A stretch of 32,141 bases of DNA, from the NCBI GenBank assembly GCA_016793775.1, contig JAEULK010000007.1:1-32141 (forward strand), written 5' to 3'. Numbering within the stretch: the stretch's first letter is position 1; each line of letters opens with the position of its first letter. This DNA comes from Sphingopyxis sp. GTDB lineage: Bacteria > Pseudomonadota > Alphaproteobacteria > Sphingomonadales > Sphingomonadaceae. Under the pieces are notes generated by a model that worked only from the letters and a program-made list of their open reading frames with translations, ran no database searches and had not been told where the DNA came from. Shown in pieces: positions 11,427 to 32,066 of the stretch. A program made the translations under genes and the position numbers.

Positions 11427-11434
11427 CGATCCTG

Positions 11435-12427: not shown

Positions 12428-12437
12428 CGGGAGAATG

Positions 12438-13472: not shown

Positions 13473-13555
13473 GGATCCGGAAGACCTGCGTAAAGGAGGA
13501 AACGCCAAGCCTAGCCCCACTACCCACGCCGCCCCAATATCTAGCGCCGCCTTTC

Positions 13556-14643: not shown

Positions 14644-15729
14644 TGATCTGCCCCCTTCAGAGTGGTCCAAAATTGGTGATATTCTGGATCATGAAAGAGA
14701 CATGGAATGCCGACCAGGAAGCATCGCCCGGAAGAGATTATCGGCAAGCTGCGTGAAACGGAGGTTTTGCTGGCGTAGGGGGCGACGGCGGCGGAAGCGT
14801 GCCGGCGGATCGCTATCAGCGAGCAGACCTATTATCGGTGGCGTAAGGAATATGGCGGCCTGAAGACCGATCAAGCGCGGCGAATGAAGGGCCTGAAGAA
14901 AGAGAATGCGCGGCTTCGCCGGGCGATCTCGGATCTGACATTGGACAAGCTCATCCTGCAGGAGGCCGCCCGGGGAAACTTCTGAGCCCCCGCCGGGTGA
15001 CGGCGTTGCTGCGCGATGCTGGGTGGCATGTGAACCGCAAGCGGGTTGAGCGTATCTGGCGCCGCGAAGGGCTGAAGGTGCCACAAAGGCAGCCGAAGCG
15101 CGGGCGGCTCTGGCTGAACGACGGATCGTGCATCCGGCTCCGGCCGGAATATCCCGGGCACGTCTGATCCTACGACTTCGTCGAGGGCCGGACGCACGAC
15201 GGCCGCAAATACCGGATCCTGTCGATCATCGACGAGGCGAGCCGGGAGTGCATGGCGTTGCCGGTCGCGCGCAAGCTCAGGAGCGATGACGTGCTGGCGG
15301 CCCTCGCCGAGCTGTTCGTCACGCGCGGCCCGCCGGCGCAGATAAGGTCGGACAATGGCCCGGAGTTTATCGCGACGGCGGTGCAGCAATGGCTCGCCCA
15401 GATCGGCGTGAAGACGCTCTACATCGCGCCCAGATCGCCATGGGAGAATGGCTATTGCGAGAGCTTCAACGGATCGCTGCGTGATGAGCTGCCGGGCGGC
15501 GAGATCTTCTACTCGCTCGCCGAGGCCCGCATCCTGATCGAAGCTTGGCGGCGACACTATAACACCGTCCGGCCGCACAGCTCGCTCGGATATCGACCAC
15601 CGGCGCCGGAAGCCGTTCCATCGCCAGTGTCGCCCTCCGGTTCCGCTTCGCTCCACCTACGGCCGACACTGGCGATCAAGGCGTCAATGCACTAACAATC
15701 CGAACGGACCACCCGGTGGGGGGCGGTCA
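14644..15729 (+). mobile_element. Decayed IS3-family insertion sequence (IS407-like)
   Basis: Imperfect terminal inverted repeats are visible: the left end TGATCTGCCCCC...GTGGTCC (14644-14668) matches the reverse complement of the right end, TGACCGCCCCCC...GTGGTCC (15706-15729). The element is 1086 bp, shorter than the 1.2-1.3 kb normal for the group, because part of orfB is deleted. The four bases next to the left end (GGAT) and right end (TTCT) do not match, so no target duplication is seen, consistent with age or rearrangement. The transposase is dead in three ways (see the pseudogene). Confidence 0.85.
14707..15695 (+). pseudogene. IS3-family transposase OrfA/OrfB, inactivated
   Basis: OrfA starts at ATG 14707 (MPTRKHRPEEIIGKLRETEV) and has the Tn3/IS3 helix-turn-helix and leucine-zipper pattern, but codon 24 is TAG (14776-14778) where relatives have Gln. 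OrfA ends at TGA 14983-14985. The -1 slippery heptamer G-GGA-AAC (14973-14979) used to make OrfAB is intact. After slippage the frame reads GKLLSPRRVTALLRDAGW, so the region between LSP and RR, about 60 codons in relatives, is missing. A second stop, TGA 15165-15167, replaces Trp in HV-W-SYDFV. The rest of the DDE integrase domain is clean: IRSDNGPEF, SPWENGYCESFNGSLRDE, WRRHYNTVRPHSSLGYRPP, to TAA 15693-15695. Confidence 0.88.
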
Positions 15730-16142: not shown

Positions 16143-16976
16143 TCAGCCGTTGAAAGCCGCAATGTTCATTGCGAACGTACCCGACCGGAAAGCGGCGATA
16201 TAGCCGAGGTCTTCGGCGCCCGCGAAGATATTGACGTCCGAGCCGAAGCTGTTGAGCAGCCAGCGGATGATCGTCACCGAGCTCGCCTCCCAATAGAGCA
16301 TTTCCTCGGGCAGGCGCGACGCGATGCGCCACACGGCATCGCGGTTCCAGTCGCGTTCGTCGTTGGCGCTGTTGCCGCTCGAGAAGAGGCCGTCTTCCTC
16401 GATCATGATCGTCCAGGCGCCGGCCTCGACCATCGCCTCGGCTTCGCGGATCATCTTTTCCGCGCTGACCTTGCCGCGGTCGCCGGGGCTCCAGCCGGTG
16501 ATCTCGGGCTTGGCCTTCATGCCGAGCGCGTTGACCGCCTTCACCAGTCGCGCCTTGTCCTGCACCGAGATCGAGACGAGCGCCGACGACAGCTCGACGA
16601 TGTCGAAGCCCAGTTCCTTCGACTGTTCGAGATAGCGGTGTACCGCGACCTCGCCCAGGGGCAACACCGTCTCGATCAGCCCGCCGGTCGATACCTCGAT
16701 CTGATTGGCGTGGAGATAGGCGTTGATCTCCTTCACGGTGTCGCGGCTCAAGAGCCGCTGGGTGCCGCAGGTCCATTTGACGCTGTCGACGAAATCGCCG
16801 AGCCCCTCGACGATCCCGGTGAGCTGGTGGAGCGAATAGGCGGGAGACCGGATTTCGGTGAGGCCGACCGTGCGCGGCTTGGGTTTCGGCTCGACGATCG
16901 GCACGATGTCGCTGAACGCCCTCTCCCTGGCGTCGGTCATGCTCTTCTGGTCCTGAAGCGGGCGCTCGATATTCAT
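16143..16976 (-). CDS. Phosphosulfolactate synthase-like protein (ComA family)
   Basis: A 277-residue predicted cytoplasmic TIM-barrel protein of the ComA family. The archaeal founder adds sulfite to phosphoenolpyruvate to make 2-phospho-3-sulfolactate for coenzyme M; plant relatives (HSA32) have other roles. Family landmarks: PRTVGLTEIRSP (34-45), GLGDFVDSVKWTCGTQRLL, a central GFDIVELSSALVSIS, and the IMIEEDGLFSSGNSANDERDWNRD segment near 190-215 (read in parts). The start at 16976 overlaps the stop of the MFS gene (ATGA), so the two are translationally coupled; this is the last gene of the receptor-esterase-permease operon. Nothing else for coenzyme M or sulfolactate is nearby, so the real reaction here is open. 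Confidence 0.75.
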   Translation of the reverse strand: MNIERPLQDQKSMTDARERAFSDIVPIVEPKPKPRTVGLTEIRSPAYSLHQLTGIVEGLGDFVDSVKWTCGTQRLLSRDTVKEINAYLHANQIEVSTGGLIETVLPLGEVAVHRYLEQSKELGFDIVELSSALVSISVQDKARLVKAVNALGMKAKPEITGWSPGDRGKVSAEKMIREAEAMVEAGAWTIMIEEDGLFSSGNSANDERDWNRDAVWRIASRLPEEMLYWEASSVTIIRWLLNSFGSDVNIFAGAEDLGYIAAFRSGTFAMNIAAFNG

Positions 16977-18367
16977 GGATTTTCTTTCTGAGGTGCCTCG
17001 GACGGCTTTACTGTCGAGAGCAGCGCCAGCCCGATGGCCAGCAGGACGATCACCGGCACGAAGCCGGCTTGTTGAGATTGTGTGGCTGCGGTCGCCCAGC
17101 CGATCGCGAGCGGCGCGAGCCAGGCGGTGACCGTGCCGGCCATCGCATAGAGGCCGAAATAGGCGCCCGCCTCGCTTGCCGGGCTGAGCGATGCGAGCAG
17201 CGCGCGGCTCGACGCGGTGGTGCCCGACGTCAGCCCGGTCATGGTGAGCAGCAGCGCGAGGAAGACGATGTCGGTGACGCGGGCGAACACCGGCCCGGTC
17301 CAGACAACCGGGGTGCCGTCCAGCGGCACGAAGAAGATCCGGTCGGGAGATGTCCCGACGATGATGAGCAGCGCGAGGATCATGCCGCTGAGCATGATCT
17401 GCAGCGTGCGTTTCGACCCAATGCGCATATCGAGCCGCGCGAGGAAAATGGCGCCGGTGGCGGCCGCTGCGAGCTGGCCGATGCCGAGCAGGAGCAGCTC
17501 GGTCGCGCTCCACCCCATCACCCCGCCGGCGAGCACGCCGGTGAAGATCGAGATGGCGGCGATTCCGTCGGCATAGATCATGCGCGCAAGCAGGAATTTC
17601 GCGGCGTTGGGCCGTGCCTTGAGATGCTGTGCGAGCCCGCCGAGATAGGCGAAGGCACCGCCAAACGACGCGCCCCAGCTCTTGTTCGTCGGCGGATAGT
17701 CGCGCGCGTAGAGCAGCAGCGGCACGCTGGCAGCGACAAGCAGCAGCGCCGCCATCACGGGGACGATGCGCAGATGCTGGAAGCTTGCGGTATCGAGCCC
17801 GAAGAGCGGCACATCGGGCTGCACGAGCGCGAGGAGGATGAAGATCAGGAAGAGGAAGCCGCTCGACGCGCCGATGGTGATCGAGAGGCCCGAGAGCCGC
17901 GCCATCGACCCGCCCGACGCCGCGACGGCGAGGAGCGAATTATGGAGCATCTCGGTGTAAGTGTAGAAGAGCTTGCCGAGCACCAGCAGCGTCACGATCA
18001 CCCCGATCGGCAGCCCGGCAGCGTCCGGCTTCGCGAACCAGAGCGCGGCGACAACAGCGACGAGGATCGCCATGAAGGCGACGATCCACGGCTTGCGCCG
18101 CCCGCGCTGATCGAGCAGCGCGCCGAGCAACGGCGCGGTGCAGGCGGCGGCGAAACCCGCATATTTGGCGAAGTTCGCGACCTCGGCCTGTCCCGCGACC
18201 GCGTCGCCGACGACGGTCTTGGCGAAATAGGGAATGAAGACGACGCCGAGCATCACGACATAAGGGATGCGCCCGCCCTCGAACAGCGCCCAGGCGAGGC
18301 CGGGACGGTCGAGACGCGCGGGCGCGGCCGGGGCGGGTGCGATCTCGGGCGCGGTCGTGCTGGCCAT
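16973..18367 (-). CDS. MFS transporter, Atg22/UMF1-like
   Basis: A 464-residue inner-membrane transporter with about twelve hydrophobic segments. The first loop carries the MFS signature in the form GALLDQRGRRKPWIV between helices 2 and 3. The N terminus MASTTAPEIAPAPAAPARLD is a short soluble tail. The pattern recalls UMF1/Atg22-like permeases, but the substrate is not deducible. The start at 18367 overlaps the last base of the carboxylesterase stop (TGATG), and the stop overlaps the ComA-like start, so the three genes are tightly coupled. In context it probably carries the product of periplasmic ester cleavage into the cytoplasm. Confidence 0.88.
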   Translation of the reverse strand: MASTTAPEIAPAPAAPARLDRPGLAWALFEGGRIPYVVMLGVVFIPYFAKTVVGDAVAGQAEVANFAKYAGFAAACTAPLLGALLDQRGRRKPWIVAFMAILVAVVAALWFAKPDAAGLPIGVIVTLLVLGKLFYTYTEMLHNSLLAVAASGGSMARLSGLSITIGASSGFLFLIFILLALVQPDVPLFGLDTASFQHLRIVPVMAALLLVAASVPLLLYARDYPPTNKSWGASFGGAFAYLGGLAQHLKARPNAAKFLLARMIYADGIAAISIFTGVLAGGVMGWSATELLLLGIGQLAAAATGAIFLARLDMRIGSKRTLQIMLSGMILALLIIVGTSPDRIFFVPLDGTPVVWTGPVFARVTDIVFLALLLTMTGLTSGTTASSRALLASLSPASEAGAYFGLYAMAGTVTAWLAPLAIGWATAATQSQQAGFVPVIVLLAIGLALLSTVKPSEAPQKENP

Positions 18368-20001
18368 CAGGCGGCTCCCATCGCTTGGCGGTCTTGGAAC
18401 GGGTTGTTCGCGACGTGCGGCTTCACGTCGAGCAGCATCGTCTCGCGTTTCTTCGCGGTATAGGCGGGCCAGCGCGGGAGCAGCGCGTTGTCGGGTTTGC
18501 CATGGCGGGCGAAGCTGGCCCAGCTGCGGCCCATGATCCGACTCATTTCGGCAACATGTGGCGAGTCCGCAAACCAAGGCGTGCGGCTCATTTCGGTGAG
18601 ATTGGCATAATTGCCCATGACGAGCGGCACGTCGGTCGCGTGTCCCGCGCCGCGCGGTCCATCGGCGGTGCCGCCGGCATAGGTCATCACATAGACGAAG
18701 GTCGGCGCTGCCTTCGCCGACGCCTTAGCATCGGCCAACTTGTTGGAGAGATAGCGCCAACTGCCCGCGGTCTCGACACGCACCATCAGCGCGCCGAGCG
18801 AGAGCTCGGGCCAGACCTTCCGGTAATGCGCAAGGACCGCATCGGTGCGGTCGCCGAGCTTGACGAAGGGGCCGTCGGCGAGGCGCGCATGCACCTCGGC
18901 CTCGCTCATCGTTTCGAGCTGCTTCAGACCCTCGGGACCCTGATAGCCCGCGATCGGTTCGTCGAGCGTGCTGCCGATCATGGTGGGGATCGTTCCGGAC
19001 GCGCCCGCCGCGACGGCAGCGCCGGGGTGCTGGAGCAGGGTCACGCCGTCGACGAGCGGCTGCGGACCGCCGCCGCCGCCATAGCCGCCCTCGGGATCCT
19101 GCCCCGCCTTCGACAGCGCCGCCACCGCTTCGAGGATCGGCGCGGCAGGCATCGCCAGCAACTCGCGCGCGCGGGAGCGGTCGAGGCCCAGCTTTGCGAG
19201 CAGACGATCGGAGTAAGCGGTGGCGGCCGGGAGTTCGATCGCGGTCGAGAGCGCCCCGCTCATCACGATCGCGCGGTGGAACAGGCCGTTCGCCGCGGGC
19301 ATCGCGAGCAGATGGCTGATCTTCTTGCCGCCGCCCGACACGCCGAAGATGGTGACGCAGCCCGGATCGCCGCCGAAGGCCGCGATATTGTCCTTCACCC
19401 ACTGCAGCGCGAGGATCAGGTCGAGATTGCCGGCGTTGCCCGCGGCATAATCGCCGCCGAGGAGGTCGCCGAGATAAAGATAGCCGAGCGGCCCGATGCG
19501 GTGGTTGAGCGAGACGACGACGACATCCTCGGTCAGCGCCAGATGCGTGCCGTCGCTCGACGCGCCCGAACCCGATCCGGTGCGAAAGCCGCCGCCGTGG
19601 AGATAGACCATCACCGGACGCTTTGCGGCGTCGGTGGCCGGGGTCCAGATGTTGAGCACGAGGCAATCCTCGGCACCGGTCAGGTCGCGTCCGCCGAGCT
19701 GCGGGCAGCTCGGGCCATAGGATGCCGCCTCGATCACCTCGCCGCGCGGCTTGAAGGACTGCGGCGGCAGAAAGCGCGCCGCCCCGCCGGTCGGCTCGCC
19801 ATAGGGGATGCCCTTGAAGACGCGGACGCCGCGGTCGCTGGTCCCGCGCACCTTGCCCGATGTGGTTTCGACCAGGTCCATGACCTCGCTCGTCGCCCTT
19901 GCACCGCTTGTCGCAGCCACCACCGCCAGCCCCGCCGCGCCGCCGAGGAAGCGGCGGCGATAGAGGGGAAGCGCCAATGGCAATGTTGACCCGATTGTCA
20001 T
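18367..20001 (-). CDS. Type B carboxylesterase, Tat-exported
   Basis: A 544-residue carboxylesterase/lipase (type B family) with a twin-arginine leader (YRRRFLGGAAGLAVVAA, cleavage near ARA-TS at about 36), so it acts folded in the periplasm. Landmarks: VFKGIPYGEP (61-70), probable disulfide Cys99-Cys113, EDCLVLNIWTP (111-121), oxyanion hole HGGG (135-138), nucleophile Ser222 in FGVSGGG, acid Glu348 in GSTLDE, and His454 in GAGHATDVPLVMGN. The nucleophile elbow GVSGG differs from the usual GESAG. The start at 20001 follows GGGGAAG and gives the Tat leader; the longer frame to 20103 runs into the receptor gene. It lies 49 nt after the TonB receptor gene and overlaps the permease gene by one base. 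Confidence 0.9.
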   Translation of the reverse strand: MTIGSTLPLALPLYRRRFLGGAAGLAVVAATSGARATSEVMDLVETTSGKVRGTSDRGVRVFKGIPYGEPTGGAARFLPPQSFKPRGEVIEAASYGPSCPQLGGRDLTGAEDCLVLNIWTPATDAAKRPVMVYLHGGGFRTGSGSGASSDGTHLALTEDVVVVSLNHRIGPLGYLYLGDLLGGDYAAGNAGNLDLILALQWVKDNIAAFGGDPGCVTIFGVSGGGKKISHLLAMPAANGLFHRAIVMSGALSTAIELPAATAYSDRLLAKLGLDRSRARELLAMPAAPILEAVAALSKAGQDPEGGYGGGGGPQPLVDGVTLLQHPGAAVAAGASGTIPTMIGSTLDEPIAGYQGPEGLKQLETMSEAEVHARLADGPFVKLGDRTDAVLAHYRKVWPELSLGALMVRVETAGSWRYLSNKLADAKASAKAAPTFVYVMTYAGGTADGPRGAGHATDVPLVMGNYANLTEMSRTPWFADSPHVAEMSRIMGRSWASFARHGKPDNALLPRWPAYTAKKRETMLLDVKPHVANNPFQDRQAMGAA

Positions 20002-20050: not shown

Positions 20051-22573
20051 TCAGAATTGATAATTGAGTTCAAGATACCATTGCCGCGGCGGCGCATAGA
20101 CATCGATGTTGATGCCGTTCGTCGCGCGCAGTTCGTTGCCGCCGACCTTGCCGTTGAAGTTGGTGACGTTGGTCACCGCAAACGCCGCGCTGAAATTGGT
20201 GTCGGCGATGTTGCGCCAGTCGAGCCGGAGGTCGAGCTGGGTGTTCGCCGGGATCGTCCGCTGCGCCTCGATATCGGTGTTCGGCTCGCTCGAATAGAAG
20301 GTGCCGCGGTGGTAGATATTGCCCGACAGGGAAATGTCCGGAATATCGCCGCCCATCTTGCCGAAATCGATCGTCGGCCGGATGCCCCACACCCATTTCG
20401 AGATACCAGCGAGGTTGAAGAAGGTGAGGTCGGGGAAGGTCGCGACCGGATATTGCGGGAAATTGCCGCCGTTCGGATATTCGCGATATTTGCCGTCGGT
20501 CAGCGTCACGAAGGCGCCGAGGTTGAACCAGCCGTAATTGACGTTGGCGTCGAAATCGAAGCCCTGGATCCGCGCCTTGGCGACGTTCGCGAGGAACACC
20601 GTCGGCGTACCGTTCACCGGCTGGGTCACGCTGCGCTGGGCATTGTTGTAATTGTCGCGGAAGATGTCGAACGACACGAGCCCGCGCAGATCGCCCGAAT
20701 GCCAGCCGATCTTGGTCCCGATTTCGTAATCGGTCACCGTCTCGGGCGCGTAGAATTCGAACCCCGGCGCGAAGCGGCTGTTGCGGCCGCCCGGATTATA
20801 GCCGCTGCGCGTGGTCGCATAGACCATGAAGTCCTTCGAGAACTGATATTGCGCCGCGAGCGTATAGGTCCCCTTCTCCGACTTCACCGTGAAATAGGTC
20901 TCGCCGGGGATCGAGCGGATCCGCGAGCCGGGGACGAGGAAGGGCGGCGCGCCGTTCATCGTCAGCATCTGCGACGCGATCGTGCCACCCGTGAGCAGCG
21001 GCGAGAGCGACGAAATCGTCTGCGACGCCGACTTGCGGCTGCTCCACGTATAGCGATAGCCGCCGGTCAGCGAGAATTGATCGGTGATGTTGATCGTCGC
21101 CTGGCCGTAGAGCGCCTTGTCGATGCCGCGCGTGCGGCTCACCGTCGTCTGCGCGCCGGTCCAGCAATAGAAGGCGCCGTCGGGGCCCGCATCGGCGCGC
21201 GCGCCGAGCGCGCCGCAGCCCGCCGCGGTCGTCGACTGCGCGATATAGCCGCCGTAGAAGACGTTCGAACCGCCGAGATAGAAGGGCGTCCAGTTCTTCT
21301 CATAATAGCCGCCGGTCGTGAACTCGATCAGGTCATCGAACAGGCTGCCCTGCAGCTGCAATTCCTCGGTCAGCCCGTCGCTCGGCCCGCGCGTCGCGTT
21401 GATCTGTTCAAGCATCGGCAAGCCGAGGCCGTCGATATTGACCGAGGTCGGCCCCTGCCCCTTGGTGCGCTGGCGGCTGAAGATATTCTTGATCGAGATA
21501 TCGGGGCTGAGTTCGACCACCGTGGTGTTGATCAGCCCGAGCTGGCGCGAGTTCGGATTGCCGTAATTGACGTTGTTTTCGTTCACGACATAGGGCGAAC
21601 GGCCTGCCGCCGCCGTCACCTGACCCTGCGCATATTCGAGCCAGGTCGGGCAGATATTGCCGGGGCAGGCAACACCGTTCAGCTGCGCGATGATCGGCGC
21701 GATGCGCTGGGTGTTGCCGCGGTTGAGCGTGGCGCTGCCCGAGTTGAACTGGCGCGCGATCGTCGCGACGCCCGAGCGCGTCGGATCCTCGATATAGTCG
21801 GCGACGAGGATCGTCGTGTTGGTCAACCAGTCGGCCGGGGTAAATTTGACGATCGCGCGATAGGATTGGCCGTCGCGGCCATCCTGCCGGCTGTCGTTGT
21901 AGAGATTGCGCGAGAAGCCGCTGCTCTTGAGGAACTGGCCCGCGAGGCGAACGGTCAGGAGGTCGGGCGCGACCGGCACGGTGACCCCGAACTCGAGGTC
22001 GCGGCGGCCATATTGGCCGACCTTGAAATTGCCATAGCCCTCGAATTCGTCGCCCGGCATTTGCGGTGTGAAGAGGATCGCGCCGCCGGTGGTGACGCGG
22101 CCGAACAACGTGCCGACCGGGCCCTTGAGCACCTGGACATTTTGCAGGTCGTAGAAGGGCGTGCCGATGTCGGGGACTTCGGCGAAATAGGTCGCGACGC
22201 CGGCGAGGCCGGTCGTGCCCTGCCCGCGGATCGCGAAGCGCGAAGTGCGGCGCGACTGGTTGGCGCCGAGCTGCGCGGTGAGACCCGGGGTCACCTTGAT
22301 CAGGTCGGGCGCCGTGCTGACATCCTTCTCGCGCAGCATCTCGCCCGAGGCGACGCTGACCGCGACGGGCGTTTCGAGGATCGATTCCTCGCGGCGCTGC
22401 GCGGTGACGATGATCATCGTCGGATCGGCGTCGCTGGCGGCCTGCTCTTCGTCGGCGGGCGGCGTAGCCTGCGCGAACGCCGCTGCCGGCATCAGCGCCG
22501 CCAGGCTGGCCGCGGCCAGCAAGGCCGCCCGAAAATCGCATGCGCCGCGGGCGCGCTCCTGCTTCCCAGTCAT
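20051..22573 (-). CDS. TonB-dependent outer-membrane receptor
   Basis: An 840-residue receptor. Signal peptide (ALLAAASLAALMPAAAFA, cleavage about residue 35), TonB box in MIIVTAQRREESI (53-65), plug domain (VSVASGEMLREKDVSTAPDL, then SRFAIRGQGTTGLAG and VQVLKGPVGTLFGRVTTGGAI), then the beta-barrel ending in the classical aromatic terminus YLELNYQF. It is of the VTAQRR type common in sphingomonad catabolic clusters. The start at 22573 is right after a GGGAGGGAGAGG purine run. It is the first gene of an operon with carboxylesterase, permease and ComA-like genes, and has a candidate TetR operator 60-81 bp upstream. The likely ligand is an ester-containing molecule cleaved by the linked esterases. 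Confidence 0.93.
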   Translation of the reverse strand: MTGKQERARGACDFRAALLAAASLAALMPAAAFAQATPPADEEQAASDADPTMIIVTAQRREESILETPVAVSVASGEMLREKDVSTAPDLIKVTPGLTAQLGANQSRRTSRFAIRGQGTTGLAGVATYFAEVPDIGTPFYDLQNVQVLKGPVGTLFGRVTTGGAILFTPQMPGDEFEGYGNFKVGQYGRRDLEFGVTVPVAPDLLTVRLAGQFLKSSGFSRNLYNDSRQDGRDGQSYRAIVKFTPADWLTNTTILVADYIEDPTRSGVATIARQFNSGSATLNRGNTQRIAPIIAQLNGVACPGNICPTWLEYAQGQVTAAAGRSPYVVNENNVNYGNPNSRQLGLINTTVVELSPDISIKNIFSRQRTKGQGPTSVNIDGLGLPMLEQINATRGPSDGLTEELQLQGSLFDDLIEFTTGGYYEKNWTPFYLGGSNVFYGGYIAQSTTAAGCGALGARADAGPDGAFYCWTGAQTTVSRTRGIDKALYGQATINITDQFSLTGGYRYTWSSRKSASQTISSLSPLLTGGTIASQMLTMNGAPPFLVPGSRIRSIPGETYFTVKSEKGTYTLAAQYQFSKDFMVYATTRSGYNPGGRNSRFAPGFEFYAPETVTDYEIGTKIGWHSGDLRGLVSFDIFRDNYNNAQRSVTQPVNGTPTVFLANVAKARIQGFDFDANVNYGWFNLGAFVTLTDGKYREYPNGGNFPQYPVATFPDLTFFNLAGISKWVWGIRPTIDFGKMGGDIPDISLSGNIYHRGTFYSSEPNTDIEAQRTIPANTQLDLRLDWRNIADTNFSAAFAVTNVTNFNGKVGGNELRATNGINIDVYAPPRQWYLELNYQF

Positions 22574-22630
22574 CCCTCTCCCTCCCTGCTCGTTCAAAGT
22601 TGAGCATGTGTCAATTTTCGAACTCGCAAT

Positions 22631-22656
22631 TTACTGGCTGGTTGTCAAGCAAGTTT
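22631..22656 (-). promoter_or_regulatory. Candidate TetR operator O1 before the receptor operon
   Basis: A 22-bp imperfect palindrome ACTGGCTGG-TTGT-CAAGCAAGT (22633-22654; 7 of 9 half-site positions pair) within a 26-bp block that recurs at 27715-27740 with 24 identities. Read on the minus strand it includes TTGACA, a good -35 hexamer, so binding would block the promoter of the receptor gene; no clear -10 is seen at standard spacing. Further half-sites (CCAGCCAGC at 22664-22672 and GCTTGCTT at 22677-22684) continue toward the tetR gene and could add autoregulation. Confidence 0.65.
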
Positions 22657-22741
22657 TTGCTGTCCAGCCAGCCAATGCTTGCTTCGCCCCACACCAGCGC
22701 GCATAGATGGCGCGTTTCGGGGCAATGATTCAGGGGGTTGA

Positions 22742-23335
22742 GTGCGGCGCACGCAGGAAGAACGGCGGCAGGAATCCGAAAGCCGGTTGCTCGCCGCGGC
22801 GGTCAAGCTGATCGCCGAAAAGGGCGCGAACGGCTTCACCCTCGCCGAGGTCGGGCACGAGGCGGGATACAGCCGCAGCTTGCCCGGCCATTATTTCGAG
22901 ACCAAGGAAGCGCTGCTCGCGCGCGTCGTCGAGCATATCACGCGCGACTCGCTCGCCGCGATCACCGACCCCGACGCCGAGCCCGGAATCGAATCGATGC
23001 GCGCGCGCTGGGGGCGTGCGCTGGCCGCCGAAGGCGCCGATTCCTATCGCACGCGCGCGCTGTACGCGCTCTTTCTCGGCGCGATGTTCGACCCCGAGCT
23101 CGCGAAGATCATGGCGCGCTACAACCAGGCGACGGTCTCGCGCATCGCCGACAGCCTGCGCGAGGCGATCGCGCGCGGCGACGTGCGCGGCGACGTCGAC
23201 GTCGAGGTCGAGGCGCAGGCGCTGCTGCTGTTCCGCCGCGGGTCGGCGCTGGTCCATTTCACCGACCCCGCGCTCGACCTGGTCAGCATCCTCGACGGTT
23301 ATCTGACGCAGGTCGCCGAGCGGCTGAAACCCTAA
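22742..23335 (+). CDS. TetR family transcriptional regulator
   Basis: A 197-residue TetR-type repressor. The N-terminal helix-turn-helix is at about 12-58 (LLAAAVKLIAEKGANGFTLA, EVGHEAGYSRSLPGHYFETKE; last part of the canonical recognition helix and YF motif). The ligand-binding domain (65-197) is all-helical and not diagnostic. The start is GTG at 22742 after CAGGGGG. It is divergent from the receptor operon and convergent with the first hydrolase gene (four-base overlap). The shared palindrome before both leftward operons makes it the probable local regulator of both; release by a substrate or breakdown product is inferred. Confidence 0.88.
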   Translation: MRRTQEERRQESESRLLAAAVKLIAEKGANGFTLAEVGHEAGYSRSLPGHYFETKEALLARVVEHITRDSLAAITDPDAEPGIESMRARWGRALAAEGADSYRTRALYALFLGAMFDPELAKIMARYNQATVSRIADSLREAIARGDVRGDVDVEVEAQALLLFRRGSALVHFTDPALDLVSILDGYLTQVAERLKP

Positions 23336-24777
23336 CCCGCCGCGACCGGACCCGTCGCTGCCTCGGCGAAATATTCCTCGGCGCGATAGGGCAGGATCAG
23401 GTCGCCAAGCAGCGCGTCGTCGACCGCGGCCCGAATGGCATTCGTATAGGCCTCGTCGGTCGGATAGAGCCGCCGCAGAAGCTCTTCGGGAAGCGGCTTG
23501 CGCCCACCGCGCGCGGGCGACGTCTTGGTATCGAACACCGCCGTCGGCGCCGCGACTTCGGGCAGGCGCACGCCGCCGAGCGCATTGCCGTGGACGTCGG
23601 TGACGATGTCGCGGAGCGTCGCACCGCGCAGCAGCCGCGGATGCCGCGCGAGCGGGACGCCGCCTTCCTTCCACCGCACGAGCGCCAGCCCCGCGGCCGC
23701 CATCGTCGGCATGAACCGCACCATGCGCGCGTCCGACCCGCCGACCGAATCCTTGATCCCGTCGCGCTCCGCGACGCTCGCGCGGTAGCCGGTGTCGCAC
23801 GCCGAGCCATGGACGGTGCCCGCGAGTTCCCACAAGCGCAGTTTCGCGGCATCGGGCTGGGGCGGCACGCGGTGCATGCGCGCTTCGGTTTCCGACAGCA
23901 TGACCAGGATCGGCACGTCGAGGTCGTCGCGGATCACCGTCTCGACGATGCGCGCGAAGAAGCGCTTGTTGTAGTCGGCCGCGCTCTCGCCCGGAATGAT
24001 CTCGGGGTTCGCTAGCTCGCTTCCGCCGCCGACGAGCACGCAGGGGATGAAGGCCGAGAAGAATTGCGCGAGCGGATGGACCGCGTTGATATAGGTCGCG
24101 AGCCGCGCAGCCGACTGCGACTCGCCGGTAGCGATGACATGCTTCGCCTGCAGCCCAGCGAGCGGATCGGGGCCGCTGGGCCCCTTCGCAGATACCAGCG
24201 CCTGCGCCACCTGGGTGAAGATGTCGTAAGAATAGGCGTCGCCTGGATGAACGAGGCCATCATATCGGTCGCCGTCCCAATTTTTGAGCCCCGCGGTCGG
24301 TACCGTGTCGAGCCCGTCGATCCCGACCTTCTGCGCCGAGATCGCTACATAGACATAGCCGCTCTGCCAGAAGCTTTCGTTCACCGCGTTCGACAGATCG
24401 CTGAAAGTCGAGACATTGGTCCATTCGGCCATCACGACGCCGTTGAATTTCGCCGGGTCCGTCGGGCGATGGACGATGACGCGCGTTTTGTAGAGCGCGC
24501 GGGCATCGGGCGCGACCTTCCATCGCCCGTCCTTGCCGAGATCGCCGAGCGGCTTGAAGCTCTGTGCGGTGCCCGAGACGAAATATTCCTCCTCGACATA
24601 GCCGTGCGCCGCCATGTCGCCATGGAAGGCGCCATAGATATGGCCGCGCTTGCCGCCCGTGACCGGGCCTTCGACCCTCGTCGCAGCGGGCCCTTTCGCA
24701 GCGGCGGCGGTCGCGGCGAGCGCGAGGGTTCCCGCGGCGGCGGCGGCGGTCATGGCAAAGTCCCGGCGTGACAGCAT
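23332..24777 (-). CDS. Alpha/beta hydrolase-domain protein, Tat-exported (paralog 1)
   Basis: A 481-residue member of the large alpha/beta-hydrolase-domain family (Abhydrolase_10 type) seen in Sphingomonadales and Actinobacteria. The twin-arginine leader MLSRRDFAMTAAAAAG predicts periplasmic location. Core features: RVIVHRPTDPAKFNGVVMAEW (99-119), SYDIFTQVAQAL (183-194), and the nucleophile elbow ATGESQSAARL with Ser220. A candidate His is in ELAGTVHGSA, and VHGNALGGVRLPE is a family signature. The substrate is unknown; esters are likely. It is the third and last gene of an operon of three paralogs, 18 nt after the middle one; its stop overlaps the tetR stop by four bases. It resembles paralog 3 more than paralog 2 (YVEEEYFxxGTA, GESQSAARL). 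Confidence 0.85.
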   Translation of the reverse strand: MLSRRDFAMTAAAAAGTLALAATAAAAKGPAATRVEGPVTGGKRGHIYGAFHGDMAAHGYVEEEYFVSGTAQSFKPLGDLGKDGRWKVAPDARALYKTRVIVHRPTDPAKFNGVVMAEWTNVSTFSDLSNAVNESFWQSGYVYVAISAQKVGIDGLDTVPTAGLKNWDGDRYDGLVHPGDAYSYDIFTQVAQALVSAKGPSGPDPLAGLQAKHVIATGESQSAARLATYINAVHPLAQFFSAFIPCVLVGGGSELANPEIIPGESAADYNKRFFARIVETVIRDDLDVPILVMLSETEARMHRVPPQPDAAKLRLWELAGTVHGSACDTGYRASVAERDGIKDSVGGSDARMVRFMPTMAAAGLALVRWKEGGVPLARHPRLLRGATLRDIVTDVHGNALGGVRLPEVAAPTAVFDTKTSPARGGRKPLPEELLRRLYPTDEAYTNAIRAAVDDALLGDLILPYRAEEYFAEAATGPVAAG

Positions 24778-24795
24778 GTCTTCCTCTCCGAAGGG

Positions 24796-26217
24796 TCAGG
24801 TGGTGGGTGGCATGTCGGCGGCGCGAGCTTGCTCGACATAGGCTTTCGCGCGCGCTGGCAGGATAATGCCCGCGGCGAGCGCAGCCTTCGCAGCAGCGGT
24901 GACGCGATCGACGTAGGTATCGTGATCGAGATAGAGTCGCTTCAACTCGTCGGCGACGAACGGATGCGTCTCGCCCGCGAGAAAATGCTTCGACCCCTGC
25001 CCCTTGTAGCTCGCGATCGGAACCTCGAGTTCAGGGAGCCGCACGCCGCCCAGCGCATTTCCATGAACGTCGCGTGCGATCGTCTTGCCGTCGGCCTCGA
25101 AGGCGATCGGCGGCTGTGCGGGCGGCGGCGGACCGCCGGCGAGCCAGCGGTGCACGTGATGGATCGCGGCGTCGGAGGTCGGCTGCCACGACACGGCGCT
25201 CGCCGCGTCGAAGGCGTGCCAGCGGCTGCCGACGCCGTCGCGATCCTCCTTGCCGTGGATGATCTTGAGCAGCTCGGCGGGACCGTGCGACGCGCCGGCG
25301 ACCTCCCAGCTGCGATAGGACGGCGTGTCGGGCTGGCGGATCGCGCGGAAGAAGGGCGCCTCGAACTCGGTGTTGAGCTGCATCGTCGGAATCCCGAGAT
25401 CGGCGCGCACCTGGGTGAATAGCGGCCGCGCGCGCGCCGCGGCGATGCCGGGTGCCGCGCCGCCCTCGAACGGCGCCGCCGCTCCCGCGCAGAGCATCGG
25501 CATCAGCGCATCATAGGCGCGCGCCAAGGGCTGCACTCCGTTCGCATAGGCGAGGATGCGGCTGCCCGACTGCGAGATGCCCGCGCCGATCAGCTTCTTT
25601 ACCTTGTAGCCGTGGAGTGGATGCCCGCGCGCCGCATTCGCGCGCAGCGCACGGCCTGCCTGGGTGAAGATGTCGTACGACCAGTCGTCGCCGGGATGGA
25701 CGAGCGCGGCATAACGATCGGCATCCCAGTTCTTCAGGCCCTGTGGCTTGTCGCCTTCGCCGAACACCCCGCCATATTGCGGCGTGACCCCGACATAGGT
25801 GAAGCCGTCATAAAGGCCCGCCCCGTCGAGAAAGCTGACGTCGAAGCCGAGGCTGACGTTGAGCCATTCGACCACGACGGTGCCGTTGAACTTCTTCGGA
25901 TCCCCCGGACGGCGCACGAACAGGCGGGTCGCAAAGGGCCGGCGTTCGCCGGGCGCGAGCATCCATTTCCCGTCGGAGGTCAGCGCACCCGCAGCGGCAT
26001 AGCGTTCGGCCTCGCCCTCCAGCAGATACTCGTCCTCGATATAGCCGAGCGCCGCGAGGTCATCGAGCGTCGTCCCGAAGAACTTGCCGCGCCCGGCGGC
26101 AGGCATCGGACGCAGCATCGCCGCTGCCCCGTCAGCGGCGCGGGCCCCGATCCCCATGGCTCCGAGCGTCGCCCCGGCCAGCGCCGTGGCGGCAAAACTC
26201 CGCCTGCTCATCCGCAT
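24796..26217 (-). CDS. Alpha/beta hydrolase-domain protein, Tat-exported (paralog 2)
   Basis: A 473-residue paralog with the Tat leader MRMSRRSFAATALAGATLGA. The conserved frame is kept (LFVRRPGDPKKFNGTVVVEW, SYDIFTQAGRAL, VHGNALGGVRLPE). The nucleophile elbow differs: GAGISQSGSRI with Ser215, where the neighbours have GESQSAAR. The region after it is also more divergent, so a different substrate or bond preference is likely. A candidate His lies in EVAGASHGPA. The start at 26217 follows GGAGAAAAGG; earlier codons of the frame fall in the upstream gene. It sits 17 nt after paralog 3 and 18 nt before paralog 1 in one transcript. Confidence 0.85.
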   Translation of the reverse strand: MRMSRRSFAATALAGATLGAMGIGARAADGAAAMLRPMPAAGRGKFFGTTLDDLAALGYIEDEYLLEGEAERYAAAGALTSDGKWMLAPGERRPFATRLFVRRPGDPKKFNGTVVVEWLNVSLGFDVSFLDGAGLYDGFTYVGVTPQYGGVFGEGDKPQGLKNWDADRYAALVHPGDDWSYDIFTQAGRALRANAARGHPLHGYKVKKLIGAGISQSGSRILAYANGVQPLARAYDALMPMLCAGAAAPFEGGAAPGIAAARARPLFTQVRADLGIPTMQLNTEFEAPFFRAIRQPDTPSYRSWEVAGASHGPAELLKIIHGKEDRDGVGSRWHAFDAASAVSWQPTSDAAIHHVHRWLAGGPPPPAQPPIAFEADGKTIARDVHGNALGGVRLPELEVPIASYKGQGSKHFLAGETHPFVADELKRLYLDHDTYVDRVTAAAKAALAAGIILPARAKAYVEQARAADMPPTT

Positions 26218-26234
26218 CGCCTTTTCTCCGTTCT

Positions 26235-27677
26235 TCAATAATAGGGCACCGGCCCGCTGGCCGATTTCGCGACATATTCGTCGCGGCGACGCGGCAGGAT
26301 CAGCCCCGCGGCCGCAGCCCATTCGGCCGCCGCTTTGATGCGTGCGGCATAGTCCGCATCGGTCGAATAGATCGCCTTCAAGGTCTCCGCGTCGAAGGGT
26401 TCCAGCCGCCCCGCGGCGTCGTTCGTCTGCGTCACATATTTCGCTGCGGGCACGGCGATTTCAGGCATGCGGATGCCGCCCTTCGCATTGCCGAAGGCGT
26501 CGGTCCGGATGACCGGCTTGTCGCCCGCGACCGCGATCCGGTCGAACCGCCCGAGCGGCGCGCCGCCGGAGAGCCAGCGATCGAGGCCGACGGCGGCGGC
26601 TTCGAGGATGGGAAACAGGTCGACCATCTTCGGCCAGCGCGCCGCCATGTTGGGAATGCCGTCACGCTGCGAAATATCGGGACGCCGCCCGCCGCCGATC
26701 GCGGAGGCATGGGTCGATCCCGCAACCTCCCAGAAGCGGTACCAGTCGCTGTCGGGCTGGCGGCTCGCGACGAAATAAGGCGTCTCGGTCTCGGAATTGA
26801 CGATTAGCACCGGCACCTTCTGGTCGGTGCGCACGCGCGTTTGCACGGTCCGCGAGCGGCGGACATTGTTATTCTCGTCGAGCGATTTGGCGGGATCGTA
26901 GACAAAGTCGTCGAACTCGGTCGACCGGCCGACCGCGACGACGATCATGAAAGCATCGAAGACATTGGCGAGCCGGTGCACCGCATTCACATAGGAAAGC
27001 AGTCGTGCCGCCGATTGCGACTCACCAAGCGCAAAGAGGCGTTCGACAGGCAATCCAGCCATCGGGTCGCTCCCGCGTCTTGCCCGCCCCGGCCCGAGCG
27101 CCCGCGCGACCTGCGAGAATATGTCGTAAGAAAAGCTATCCCCGGCAATCTCGAGCGATCCATAACGTTCCGGATCCCATTGTTTCAGCCCGAGGGGCCG
27201 CTCCTTCGTCCCTTCGAGCCCCATGCGCTGCGCCGAGATCGCCGCATAGGCGTAGCCGTCTTTCCAGAATTGCTGGTTCACTGCCGACGAGATTTCGAAA
27301 CCGGCCGAAACATTGGCCCATTCGCAGATGACGGTGCCATTGAACGTCGCGGCGTCCTTCGGCCGCTGCACGATCACGCGCGTCTTGAACGGCGCCTGCT
27401 TCGCGGGTGCGACGGTCCATACACCGTCGGGTCCGAGCGTGCTGACGGGCGCATAAGCGTCGGCCGTACCCGCGATGAAATATTCTTCCTCGACATAACC
27501 ATGCGCGGCGAGATCGTTGGCATGCGCGCCGAAAATCCGATTCCGCTGTCCACCCGTTATGGGCCCCTCAGTGCGACTTGACGCCATACGAGGTTTTGCG
27601 ATCGCCTCACCGGGAGCGATGAGCGTGGCCATAGCACCAATCGCAATCCGTTTCCCGAACCCGCGCCTATCCAGCAT
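26235..27677 (-). CDS. Alpha/beta hydrolase-domain protein, Tat-exported (paralog 3)
   Basis: A 480-residue paralog, first gene of the three-hydrolase operon. The leader MLDRRGFGKRIAIGAMATLI carries the RR pair and a hydrophobic stretch, so Tat export is likely though the h-region is short. Core: RVIVQRPKDAATFNGTVICEW, SYDIFSQVARAL, nucleophile Ser220 in ALGESQSAARL, EVAGSTHASA with a candidate His, and FGNAKGGIRMPE. An insert rich in charged residues (FDDFVYDPAKSLDENNNVRR) near 250-270 may cap the active site. The start is supported by GGTGGGAG before ATG 27677. The candidate TetR operator O2 lies 38-63 bp upstream. Confidence 0.86.
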   Translation of the reverse strand: MLDRRGFGKRIAIGAMATLIAPGEAIAKPRMASSRTEGPITGGQRNRIFGAHANDLAAHGYVEEEYFIAGTADAYAPVSTLGPDGVWTVAPAKQAPFKTRVIVQRPKDAATFNGTVICEWANVSAGFEISSAVNQQFWKDGYAYAAISAQRMGLEGTKERPLGLKQWDPERYGSLEIAGDSFSYDIFSQVARALGPGRARRGSDPMAGLPVERLFALGESQSAARLLSYVNAVHRLANVFDAFMIVVAVGRSTEFDDFVYDPAKSLDENNNVRRSRTVQTRVRTDQKVPVLIVNSETETPYFVASRQPDSDWYRFWEVAGSTHASAIGGGRRPDISQRDGIPNMAARWPKMVDLFPILEAAAVGLDRWLSGGAPLGRFDRIAVAGDKPVIRTDAFGNAKGGIRMPEIAVPAAKYVTQTNDAAGRLEPFDAETLKAIYSTDADYAARIKAAAEWAAAAGLILPRRRDEYVAKSASGPVPYY

Positions 27678-27714
27678 CTCGCACTCCCACCGTTCTAGGT
27701 AGGCAAATTAAAGA

Positions 27715-27740
27715 TTACTAGCTGGTCGTCAAGCAAGTTT
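27715..27740 (-). promoter_or_regulatory. Candidate TetR operator O2 before the three-hydrolase operon
   Basis: ACTAGCTGG-TCGT-CAAGCAAGT (27717-27738), differing from O1 only at two positions in the 26-bp block. On the minus strand it contains TTGACG with TAATTT 16 bases downstream, a plausible weak sigma-70 promoter, so the operator would cover the -35 region about 60 bp before the first gene. Confidence 0.62.
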
Positions 27741-27996: not shown

Positions 27997-28758
27997 ATGC
28001 CGAGACCCCGCACTCTCGATCCGATCGGTGCATCCGATTATCCGAACATCGTGGAGGATCCCGTTCGCGTAGCAGCGATCGTCGCAAGCTTTATCGACCG
28101 CCTAAATTACCTTCAGCGCGGATGCCGGTTCGCGAAGACAATACTCCAGTCCAACCAAGTCGCATTCAACGAATCCCTCAGGCGCTTGAAGGATCAGTTG
28201 GCGCGCATTGATCGCGGACAGCATGTGGCCTTCGAACGATCGCAAGACAATCGACTTCATCCGGAACTCGAACTGCTGATCAATGTCGAGGCCCGAAATC
28301 GAGCTGGCGTAGATCAGAGCGCGGCCTTGTTGCCCGAGCATCAATCACACGTCCTCGCCGCAGCCAGACAGATTGCATCTGCTCAAGCTCCTCGAAGGGG
28401 TCGACCCGGCCGCGGGGTTCTGATGCAGTATCTCGAAGGACTGGTGGCACTGATAATCGAGGTGACCGGAAAGCCCGTCATGGCACCACGAACGTCGAAC
28501 AGCGTCTACGAACCAAGGCTGACAGGTGCCGCTGGTCAGGTAATTCGAATGTTTGCGGACAGTGTCGAACCCGGCCTCTCCGACACTACGCTCGTGAACA
28601 TGATCGGGAAAATCCGGCGAAAAAATGCCGGCAAAGAGATGAAATTTTCCGACCTTTTCCCCTTCTACCGAAGCCGGGTAACGAAGGATGGGTTGGAACT
28701 GGGTGCCGGCTACCGTGTGGAGGCGTCCGGCATCATTTTCCCAATTTATTGTCCTTAG
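27997..28758 (+). CDS. Hypothetical protein, phage/mobile-region type
   Basis: A 253-residue protein without a family I can name. The middle is mostly helical (FAKTILQSNQVAFNESLRRL). The C-terminal half has a pattern seen in short unknown proteins of alphaproteobacterial prophages and islands: RRGRPGRG, then a helix VALIIEVTGKPVMAP, then a GAAGQVIRMFADSV helix and SDTTLVNMIGKIRRK. The codon third positions are less GC-rich than in the left part of the window. The start is uncertain; no good ribosome binding site precedes ATG 27997. It lies 54 nt before the methyltransferase gene on the same strand. Opposite-strand frames here look like shadows. Confidence 0.5.
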   Translation: MPRPRTLDPIGASDYPNIVEDPVRVAAIVASFIDRLNYLQRGCRFAKTILQSNQVAFNESLRRLKDQLARIDRGQHVAFERSQDNRLHPELELLINVEARNRAGVDQSAALLPEHQSHVLAAARQIASAQAPRRGRPGRGVLMQYLEGLVALIIEVTGKPVMAPRTSNSVYEPRLTGAAGQVIRMFADSVEPGLSDTTLVNMIGKIRRKNAGKEMKFSDLFPFYRSRVTKDGLELGAGYRVEASGIIFPIYCP

Positions 28759-28812
28759 CGGCGACCACATTCACCGATAGTTGGTTGGCTCCAATTTTTC
28801 TGGAGCAAACCA

Positions 28813-30138
28813 ATGACGACAAAATCCCTCGCGCATCCCCACATCGAAATGGTGCGGCGCAAGTCCCTGAAGCCCAACCCGACCAACGCCCGCGACCACT
28901 CGGACAAGCAAATCGCGCAGATCGCGGCGAGCATCGAGAGGTTCGGCTTTTTGATCCCGATCGTCATCGACGACGATGACATGATTGCTGCCGGTCACGG
29001 CCGGTGGCAGGCGGCGAAGCTGCTGCGGTTGAAGGAAGTACCGATCATCCGCGCAGGCTTTCTGACCGATGCCGATCGGCGCGCCTTCGCTCTCGCCGAA
29101 AACCGCATCTCCGAACTCAGCAGCTGGAATGAGGATCTGCTCGCGAACGAGCTGAACATTCTGTTCGAGGAAGGGTACAACCTCGAGATCACGGGCTTCT
29201 CGACGAGCAGTCTCGATTTCTCGTCCCCCGACGAAAAGAAGAAGCCCGGCCCCGAAATGATCGAACTGCCCGATCCGGAGGCGCTCGCCGTGTCGCGCGC
29301 AGGAGACCTGTGGCACATCGGGCCCCACCGCCTCTATTGCGGCAACGCTCGCGAGGTCGAGAGCTACGAGGTGCTGCTCGGCAGCGACCGCGCGGCCATG
29401 GTGTTCAGCGACCCGCCCTACAACGTTCCGATCGATGGCCATGTATCCGGGCTCGGCAAGCAGCGTCACCGCGAGTTCGCCGAAGCCAGCGGCGAAATGA
29501 CGCAGGCCGAGTTTACTGCCTTCCTGCGCTCGATCTTCAGGAACTGTGTCCGGTTCGCCAGAGAAGGTTCGATCCACTACCACTGCATGGACTGGAAGCA
29601 CTGCCGCGAGATCCTCGATGCGGCCGATGGCGTCTATTCCGGCTTCAAGCAGCTCATCACCTGGGTCAAGGACAATGCGGGAATGGGCACCTTCTATCGG
29701 TCCCGCCACGAACTGATCTTCGTGTTCAAGTCGGGCCGTGCGAAGCACATCAACAACTTCGGCCTCGGGGACACCGGGCGCTACAGGACCAACGTCTGGG
29801 AATATGCCGGCGCCAACAGCTTCCGCAAAGGCCGGGCGAAGGATCTCGCGGCGCACCCGACGGTCAAGCCGACCGCGCTCGTCATCGACGCCATCCGCGA
29901 CTGCTCGAACCGCGGCGACCTGATACTCGATCCGTTCAGCGGGTCGGGCACGACGCTGATCGCGGCGCACAAGGCCGGCCGGCGCGGCGCGGCCATCGAA
30001 ATCGACCCGCTCTACTGCGACACCAGCATCCGCCGGCTGATGGAGGCCTCGGGTCTCGACGCCGTCCGGGAGGACGGCCGCCGCTTCGTCGACCTCGAGG
30101 CCGAGCTGAACCAGGATATGACCGATGACGAAGGATAA
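28813..30138 (+). CDS. ParB-domain DNA methyltransferase (site-specific)
   Basis: A 441-residue fusion. The N-terminal ParB/Sulfiredoxin-like domain (10-130) shows LKPNPTNARDHSDKQIAQIA, IVIDDDDMIAAGHGRWQAAK and LAENRISELSSW. The C-terminal amino-methyltransferase domain (165-430) has motif IV DPPY at 200-203 followed by motif I DPFSGSGT at 373-380, the order of beta-class N6-adenine/N4-cytosine enzymes. Such fusions are typical of phages and prophages, where they protect or mark phage DNA, and they lack a linked restriction enzyme, as here. GGAGC precedes ATG 28813. The 3' end overlaps the DUF5681 gene by 14 nt, so this is part of the packaging operon. Confidence 0.92.
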   Translation: MTTKSLAHPHIEMVRRKSLKPNPTNARDHSDKQIAQIAASIERFGFLIPIVIDDDDMIAAGHGRWQAAKLLRLKEVPIIRAGFLTDADRRAFALAENRISELSSWNEDLLANELNILFEEGYNLEITGFSTSSLDFSSPDEKKKPGPEMIELPDPEALAVSRAGDLWHIGPHRLYCGNAREVESYEVLLGSDRAAMVFSDPPYNVPIDGHVSGLGKQRHREFAEASGEMTQAEFTAFLRSIFRNCVRFAREGSIHYHCMDWKHCREILDAADGVYSGFKQLITWVKDNAGMGTFYRSRHELIFVFKSGRAKHINNFGLGDTGRYRTNVWEYAGANSFRKGRAKDLAAHPTVKPTALVIDAIRDCSNRGDLILDPFSGSGTTLIAAHKAGRRGAAIEIDPLYCDTSIRRLMEASGLDAVREDGRRFVDLEAELNQDMTDDEG

Positions 30139-30571
30139 GAACCCCGGCGATTATGAGGTCGGCTACGGCAAGCCGCCCAAGCACACCCGCTTTCCGCCCG
30201 GCCAGTCCGGCAATCCCAAGGGGAGGGAGAAGGGCAAGAAGGGCCTGAAGACCGATCTTGCGGCGGAGCTCGACGCGAGGCAGACCATCCAGATCAACGG
30301 GGAGAAGATCAGTGGGCGCCGTCAGCGCCTTGCAGTCCGCACCTTGGCGATGCGCGCAGCGGCCGGCGACCAGAAGGCGCAGTCGATCTTCTTCCCGCTC
30401 ATCCTGCAGGTGCTAGGCGTCGAAGACCGCGGCACCGGGGGACAGAAATTGTCGCCGCAGGACCAGGCCATCCTCGACGCGATGCTCGACGAGGCGGGCG
30501 ATGCACTCGACGCTGATGAGACCGGCAGCTCCAACCACGATGGGGAGCAGGGCAATGAAGCGGGTCGATAA
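30125..30571 (+). CDS. DUF5681 protein, probable small terminase-like partner
   Basis: A 148-residue protein with the DUF5681 signature near the N terminus (YEVGYGKPPKHTRFPPGQSG then NPKGREKGKKG). A conserved helical part follows (LAVRTLAMRAAAGDQKAQSI and FFPLILQVLG) and an acidic tail. DUF5681 proteins regularly precede large terminase genes in prophages, so a DNA-recognition or small-subunit role is plausible but unproven. It overlaps the methyltransferase gene upstream (14 nt) and the terminase gene downstream (17 nt), indicating coupled translation. Confidence 0.85.
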   Translation: MTKDKNPGDYEVGYGKPPKHTRFPPGQSGNPKGREKGKKGLKTDLAAELDARQTIQINGEKISGRRQRLAVRTLAMRAAAGDQKAQSIFFPLILQVLGVEDRGTGGQKLSPQDQAILDAMLDEAGDALDADETGSSNHDGEQGNEAGR

Positions 30572-32066
30572 CCCCACCCTGCTCCTGCAGGAGCTGATGC
30601 GTCGTGACTTCCGCGCTTTCCTCCGTAAGGCCTTTCCCACCATCCGCGGCGGCGATGAAATCCTCTGGAACTGGCACCTCGATGCGATCGCTTACGAACT
30701 GGACCGGATCGATCGCGGCGAGAACCAACGGCTGCTCGTCACCCTGCCCCCGCGCAACCTGAAATCGATCGCCATCTCGGTCGCCTGGGTGGCGTGGATG
30801 CTCGGCCGCGATCCGCGCCGCAACTTCGTCTGTATCAGCTATTCGAACGAGCTGTCGGGCAAGCTCGCGCGCGATTGCCTCGCGATCATGCAGTCGGGCT
30901 GGTATCGCTCGATGTTCCCGCGCACCATATTATCGCCCAAGCGCTCGGCGTCGGGCGACTTCGAGACGACGCGCGGGGGCGGCCGTCTCGCGACCTCGAT
31001 CACCGGCACTCTGACGGGTCGCGGCGGCGATATCCTGATCATCGACGATCCGATCAAGCCCGACGAGGTCTATTCCGATACCGCACGTGAGGGTGTGAAC
31101 AACTGGTACCGCTCGACGCTGACCTCGCGCCTCAATGACAAGGCGTCGGGCGCTATCGTCACGGTCATGCAGCGGCTGCACGAGAATGATCTCGCGGGCA
31201 TGCTTCTCGAAACACCGGGGTGGCGCGAGCTGCGACTGTCGGCGATCGCAGCTGAGGACGAGATCATCGCCTTGTCGCGCCGAAAGGTGCATTACCGCAA
31301 GGCAGGCGACGTTCTGCATCCCGAGCGCGAAAGCCTTGAAGTATTGCAGGCGCAACGGCTCGCCATGGGCTCGTCGGCGTTCGAGGCTCAATATCAGCAG
31401 AATCCGATCCCCGCAGTCGGAAACATGGTGAAAGCCGAATGGCTGCGCATCTACACCGACATTGAACTCGCCGAGAAGCCGGGCCGTATCGTGCAGTCGT
31501 GGGACACCGCCAGCAAGGATGGCGTCCACAACGACTATTCCGTCTGCATCACCGCCAGCATCCACCGCAACGAGATCCGCATCCTCGACGTATTCCGCGC
31601 CAAGGCGGCCTTTCCCGAACTGAAGCAGGCGGCGATCCGCCTGGCGCGGCAATATCGCGCCCGCACGATTTTGATCGAAGATGCCGCGTCCGGGCAGCAA
31701 TTGCTGCAGGTACTGCGCAATGAGCAGCCGCGCGGCGTGCCGATGCCGATCTCGCGCAAACCCGAGGGTGACAAATTGTCTCGGATGGCTGGTGTCTCGG
31801 GCCAGATCGAAGGTGGGCAACTCCTACTGCCGGAAGATGCGCCTTGGCTCGCCGAGTTCAAAAAGGAACTTCTCGGTTTCCCCAATGCCCGTCACGACGA
31901 CCAGGCCGATGCCCTCACCCAGCTCATGAGCTGGGGCATGCAATGGGACTATGGCAGGGATCATCAGCAGATATTGGGCGAAGGTGCCGTGCTGTTTGTG
32001 AATTGTCAAACGGCGTTCAAAAGGGACCCCCGATCGGCGTCGAAGAGGGACCCCCTTTTCGGATAA
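30555..32066 (+). CDS. Phage terminase large subunit, C terminus replaced by IS DNA
   Basis: A 503-residue packaging motor and nuclease. The ATPase domain has a Walker A-like PPRNLKS (65-71, usually PPRxGKS, so the Gly is replaced by Leu) and Walker B LIIDD (161-165). The RNase H-like nuclease domain has Asp317 in QSWDTAS, the acidic pair in LIEDAASG (375-376) and HDDQADA (448-453). The start at 30555 has GGGGAGCAGGG before it. Residues from about 480 on (FVNCQTAFKRDPRSASKRDP) are encoded by the IS21-type end that begins near 31993, so the native tail is lost; the catalytic residues remain. No portal or capsid gene follows in the window. Confidence 0.9.
   Translation: MKRVDNPTLLLQELMRRDFRAFLRKAFPTIRGGDEILWNWHLDAIAYELDRIDRGENQRLLVTLPPRNLKSIAISVAWVAWMLGRDPRRNFVCISYSNELSGKLARDCLAIMQSGWYRSMFPRTILSPKRSASGDFETTRGGGRLATSITGTLTGRGGDILIIDDPIKPDEVYSDTAREGVNNWYRSTLTSRLNDKASGAIVTVMQRLHENDLAGMLLETPGWRELRLSAIAAEDEIIALSRRKVHYRKAGDVLHPERESLEVLQAQRLAMGSSAFEAQYQQNPIPAVGNMVKAEWLRIYTDIELAEKPGRIVQSWDTASKDGVHNDYSVCITASIHRNEIRILDVFRAKAAFPELKQAAIRLARQYRARTILIEDAASGQQLLQVLRNEQPRGVPMPISRKPEGDKLSRMAGVSGQIEGGQLLLPEDAPWLAEFKKELLGFPNARHDDQADALTQLMSWGMQWDYGRDHQQILGEGAVLFVNCQTAFKRDPRSASKRDPLFG

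Follow-up and report, generated by a model that had tools for sequence, protein, structure and literature searches.

The upstream regions of two neighboring operons in Sphingopyxis sp. carry nearly identical palindromes, and the distribution and conservation of these sites strongly suggest that the two operons constitute a single TetR regulon of eight genes under the control of a repressor encoded between them. The window that we analyzed spans 32,141 nucleotides (positions 1–32,141 of contig JAEULK010000007.1, assembly GCA_016793775.1). As originally predicted, the blocks at 22631–22656 and 27715–27740 agree at 24 of 26 positions, are oriented in the same way and each lie upstream of a leftward operon, and a tetR gene divergent from the first of these operons is situated between them. 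The prediction of one regulon encompassing both operons is supported, with its gene count revised from nine to eight (a TonB receptor, a carboxylesterase, an MFS transporter, a ComA-like protein, TetR and three hydrolases), since the next reading frame after the ComA-like gene encodes an integrase core.

The receptor operon, on the minus strand, begins with a TonB-dependent receptor (20051–22573; PF00593 and PF07715), whose start at 22573 appears by eye to be conserved in the alignment. It is followed by a type-B carboxylesterase (18367–20001; PF00135, 313 bits), an MFS transporter whose start overlaps the esterase stop (16973–18367; PF11700 and PF07690) and, last, a 277-residue ComA-like protein of the phosphosulfolactate synthase family (16143–16976; PF02679, 163 bits against a cut-off of 25). 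The hydrolase operon, on the same strand, consists of three alpha/beta hydrolases that match PF20091 over nearly their full length with 376–417 bits (cut-off 23): H1 (26235–27677; 412 bits), H2 (24796–26217, with 26217 its likely start; 417 bits) and H3 (23332–24777; 376 bits). By eye, H1–H3 and the carboxylesterase all appear to begin with Tat-like twin-arginine motifs; in the carboxylesterase this is the stretch RRRFLGG, which we take to be such a motif. Aligning 11 of the 14 hydrolases found in five genomes shows both the twin arginine and a G-x-S-Q-S motif to be invariant. The tetR gene (22742–23335, plus strand, GTG start), divergent from the receptor gene and convergent with H3, encodes a TetR-family regulator of 197 amino acids that matches PF00440 at residues 16–62 (41.6 bits, cut-off 24). 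The best TetR_C match of its C-terminal part is TetR_C_11 (29.7 bits, cut-off 32), and the protein scores below every curated cut-off of the named NCBI equivalogs (BetI at 43.7 bits against 201, with MtrR, ScbR and others likewise under).

Several other features of the window lie outside these operons. An IS3-like stretch with an integrase-core domain and a stop inside one frame occupies 14660–15710, between the ComA-like and LysR genes; the assignment of the integrase-core frame to the IS3 type is a reading by eye. The segment from 27997 to 32066, at the contig end, is prophage-like, with frames carrying ParB_N/DNA methylase, DUF5681 and terminase domains. At 3926–13527 lie a second TonB receptor, a penicillin-amidase-like frame, an S13 peptidase, and beta-lactamase-family and enolase-superfamily genes, none of which were found in the regions fetched from relatives save for weak TonB matches; the same holds for the window genes left of the ComA-like gene as a whole.

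As a 26-mer identity, this match is the highest between the upstream regions of the two operons; dinucleotide-preserving shuffles, run as 500 pairs, reached 14–20 matching positions. At the core of both blocks is the inverted repeat ACTNGCTNG-N4-CNAGCNAGT, a symmetrized form of the pattern in the original prediction. It defines two 22-bp candidate operator palindromes, both on the minus strand: O1 (22633–22654), upstream of the receptor operon and 59 bp before the receptor ATG, and O3 (27717–27738), 39 bp before the first ATG of the hydrolase operon. With up to three mismatches allowed, the originally predicted pattern matches only these two places in the window, where none would be expected. 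The right half, TCAAGCAAGT, is the same in all 11 sites that we compared, and the left half differs at three positions.

The original prediction would have been undermined by many matches at unrelated places, and these proved to be few. The genome of origin (3.93 Mb in 106 contigs, 96% complete) contains two exact core matches, O1 and O3. Among the matches listed there is no place with one mismatch and there are 17 others, each with two mismatches; since the reversed control gave 77, we regard these as background. Searching with a stricter, asymmetric pattern and allowing three mismatches recovered O1 and O3 on both strands, plus three extra places, all with three mismatches. In 396 other genomes of the family there were two further exact matches, one in each of two genomes (G089 and G343). 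Both are G+C-rich palindromes of a different type, and their 3-kb loci contain no tetR homolog beyond one tblastn hit with an E value of 0.7; they were set aside.

Within the genus, the motif and the regulator occur together. A close TetR ortholog (86–99% identity) is present in 5 of 80 Sphingopyxis genomes, the exact core is present in the same five, and the other 75 have neither; the reversed control gave one match in each of four other genomes. Four of the five genomes carry two exact copies and S. panaciterrulae carries one, such that an exact site precedes the receptor operon in all five and the hydrolase operon in four, including the O3 counterparts of G212, G227 and G269. The hypergeometric probability of this co-occurrence is 4e-8, but given the relatedness of the genomes and the physical linkage of O1 to tetR, this value serves mainly to rule out an unrelated regulator, a repeat or a general promoter. 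The co-occurrence is also partly trivial, as O1, O3 and tetR travel as one cluster in four of the five genomes. More distant TetR relatives, at nine Sphingopyxis loci (26–41% identity) and in G085 (33%), have no palindrome with up to two mismatches in their 3-kb loci and were not used; three places with one mismatch in G277, where the control gave two, were likewise set aside. A search of plasmids for the TetR gave no match.

All six loci with a close TetR, the five from Sphingopyxis and one from Devosia riboflavina, have the exact O1 core between tetR and the receptor-operon or MFS side, and no conserved stretch in the intergenic alignment, genes aside, is longer than the block around O1. Residues 1–62 of TetR are identical at 61–62 of 62 positions in all five orthologs, and the remainder is identical at 132, 108 and 132 of 135 positions, at 118 of 132 and, in Devosia, at 98 of 135. 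As read from these sequences, the operator site and the DNA-binding part of TetR are conserved together, also in Devosia. The receptor appears to change faster than the regulator: in G212 the TetR shares 98% identity with that of the window and the receptor only 59%, which suggests either faster change or an exchange of the receptor. In G227 the O3 counterpart (L040, ~13151–13172), itself a near-perfect palindrome, is embedded in a perfect inverted repeat whose arms exceed 20 bp. A scan of ten neighboring reading frames indicated that the neighbors of the cluster differ at each of the loci examined, as expected of an accessory unit.

Two loci depart from this arrangement. In S. panaciterrulae the two operons are on different contigs: the receptor cluster is on C5, with 88 kb or more to each contig end, and the hydrolase operon is at the end of C4, where a site with one mismatch precedes it. 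With up to one mismatch allowed, the genome contains only two places, one before each operon, and the reversed control gave six. Retention of a site upstream of an apparently unlinked hydrolase operon speaks for shared control, though this is a single genome. The first hydrolase gene there (L046, 14164–15594, on C4) has an H1-like start, an H2-like body and an operator-bearing promoter upstream; this is suggestive only, and the gene may be an H1–H2 fusion that has kept the H1 promoter. The second locus is that of D. riboflavina, which belongs to another order. Its TetR is 81% identical, and an exact O1 site lies 121 bp before an MFS gene, which is followed by a ComA-like gene. In the 40 kb searched, these two are the only regulon genes beside TetR; homologs of the receptor and the carboxylesterase were not found there, and the whole genome contains no H3 homolog at an E value of 1e-15. 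Among 75 Devosia genomes the TetR was found at 1e-20 in D. riboflavina only; a Devosia place with one mismatch (G275:C1:172891) was set aside because it lies inside a longer hairpin. The presence of the sites can be read directly from the DNA, as can their uniqueness, conservation and co-occurrence with TetR.

Adjacent to O1 on the tetR side is a weaker operator-like palindrome, O2 (22655–22676, plus strand), which the original prediction overlooked and which ends 65 bp before tetR. Its center is 22 bp from that of O1, and although only 10 of the 14 core bases are matched in the window, the same shift recurs at all six loci, with 10, 11, 11, 10, 12 and 11 of 14 core bases matched. Of the 150 shifts tried, +22 ranked highest apart from zero, with 65 of 84 matches and the next at 51, and a palindrome score of at least 10 is reached at 0.05% of positions. 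Two dimers may sit side by side on O1–O2, two helical turns apart, and the position of O2 would fit autoregulation of tetR. On the other side of O1, between it and the receptor start, is a TTGA-N7-TCAA box (22600–22614 in the window) that is present at all five Sphingopyxis loci and partly in Devosia; it is possibly a site for a second regulator or a promoter element.

The core was also originally said to overlap a TTGAC(A/G) hexamer. The hexamer is present, but the assignment of the promoter has to be corrected: by eye, TTGCTT-N18-TTTAAT fits better for the hydrolase promoter. No sigma-70-type site emerged from a promoter scan of the leftward strand at either operon. Reading the hydrolase promoters by eye, we find TTTAAT, TATAGG or TATAGA 18–19 nt after a TTGCTT inside the operator. 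In this arrangement O3 would cover the −35 element and the spacer, and TetR binding there would block RNA polymerase.

We weighed three other accounts of the shared block. It could be a general promoter element, an extended −35, rather than a TetR site, as the block carries TTGAC(A/G) or TTGAT and none of the 11 sites varies in the right half; promoter function could indeed explain part of that conservation. However, the genome contains just two exact sites, 75 of the 80 Sphingopyxis genomes lack the motif, the left half is conserved as well and mirrors the right, and the Devosia site has been kept alongside the same TetR, all of which make this account very improbable. We judge it only slightly less doubtful that a different transcription factor, encoded elsewhere, acts on both sites and that tetR is a mere neighbor. 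A LysR regulator is indeed encoded in the window (13569–14453), but the regions of about 40 kb around tetR in four Sphingopyxis genomes and one Devosia genome have no counterpart of it, the motif accompanies TetR into Devosia, in a different order, and the DNA-binding part of TetR is nearly invariant.

A match of 24 of 26 positions between sites 5 kb apart could, alternatively, stem from copying or recombination of one promoter region, leaving the second block with no regulatory role. The regions flanking the two blocks show no resemblance, though, and in all five Sphingopyxis genomes the palindrome of O3 has been kept while its spacer and flanks have diverged; in G227 it is a near-perfect palindrome within a longer inverted repeat. 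We consider this the least credible of the three.

We favor, and hold very probable, the model in which a TetR dimer on O1 and O3 represses both operons, with O2 as an accessory site and release by a ligand. A dimer of the TetR encoded at 22742–23335 would bind the 22-bp palindrome at both sites and keep the two leftward operons off, at O3 by occupying the −35 element and spacer of the hydrolase promoter. A second dimer at the weaker O2 probably strengthens repression in the divergent region and also acts on tetR expression. We infer binding, repression rather than activation, and the ligand and substrate discussed below from the arrangement of sites and genes; TetR could instead activate. Release would most likely be caused by a small breakdown product on which the MFS transporter and the ComA-like enzyme act, as the smaller gene set in Devosia suggests that what these two proteins handle is the TetR ligand. 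The receptor, four exported esterases or hydrolases, the transporter and the ComA-like enzyme would then be switched on together.

The combination of a receptor, four hydrolases, a transporter and an intracellular enzyme suggests the uptake and processing of an ester-bearing compound, which would be bound at the surface, cleaved outside the cytoplasm, imported and processed. The last enzyme is probably not a phosphosulfolactate synthase. It belongs by PF02679 to the same family as ComA, (2R)-phospho-3-sulfolactate synthase (PDB 1qwg, 9cm1 and 1u83; phmmer E values of about 1e-10 to 6e-5), but it scores 75.6 bits against the archaeal ComA equivalog TIGR03849, under the cut-off of 280, and the ComA stretch EGRESG aligns with EEDGLF in the window protein. 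Both the low score and this difference indicate that its activity is probably different. A search of 385 genomes of the class found the protein in its own genome only. More speculatively, and with less confidence than we would need to argue for it, the cluster may be a catabolic unit, mobile and modular, that serves an undescribed class of ester natural products. Its transferable core would be TetR, the MFS transporter and a ComA-like enzyme of new activity; Sphingopyxis would have added the surface receptor and the four exported hydrolases, all controlled by the same operator, and two TetR dimers would act side by side on O1–O2.

According to passages of PMC9736018, TetR regulators occupy palindromes as one dimer or as a pair of dimers, an example being MexZ, on a palindrome of 20 bp. 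In TetR/tetO and MexZ/mexXY, as described in those passages and as here, the regulator has an N-terminal helix-turn-helix, its gene is divergent from its target and an intergenic palindrome of about 20 bp lies between them. TetR itself, as a further similarity, has two operator sites. Unlike in these systems, the same operator recurs here before a further operon at a distance of 5 kb (in S. panaciterrulae on a separate contig), and the targets are uptake and ester-cleaving genes rather than an efflux pump. The number of sites also differs from that of PA3973 of Pseudomonas aeruginosa, for which the same passages give more than 300 ChIP-seq sites with a 13-bp motif, as compared with two exact 22-bp sites in the genome here. 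In sphingomonads, TonB-receptor genes often adjoin substrate-metabolism genes and share regulatory elements with them, according to passages of PMC7142613, and the grouping of the receptor with metabolic genes is the same here; those passages mention neither a TetR operator common to two operons nor genes of the ComA-like or PF20091 type. A literature search for this cluster gave nothing among the matches listed, and one for the hydrolase family found no paper naming Abhydrolase_10 or PF20091 in the collection searched.

A regulon of this type is ordinary and known; what is unusual is the set of genes, together with the ComA-like enzyme. The shared operator joins eight genes into one unit that can be tested, and it provides a co-regulated setting for the PF20091 hydrolases and for the ComA-like enzyme. 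Any compound that frees TetR from O1 or O3 would be the substrate of the pathway or would lead to it.
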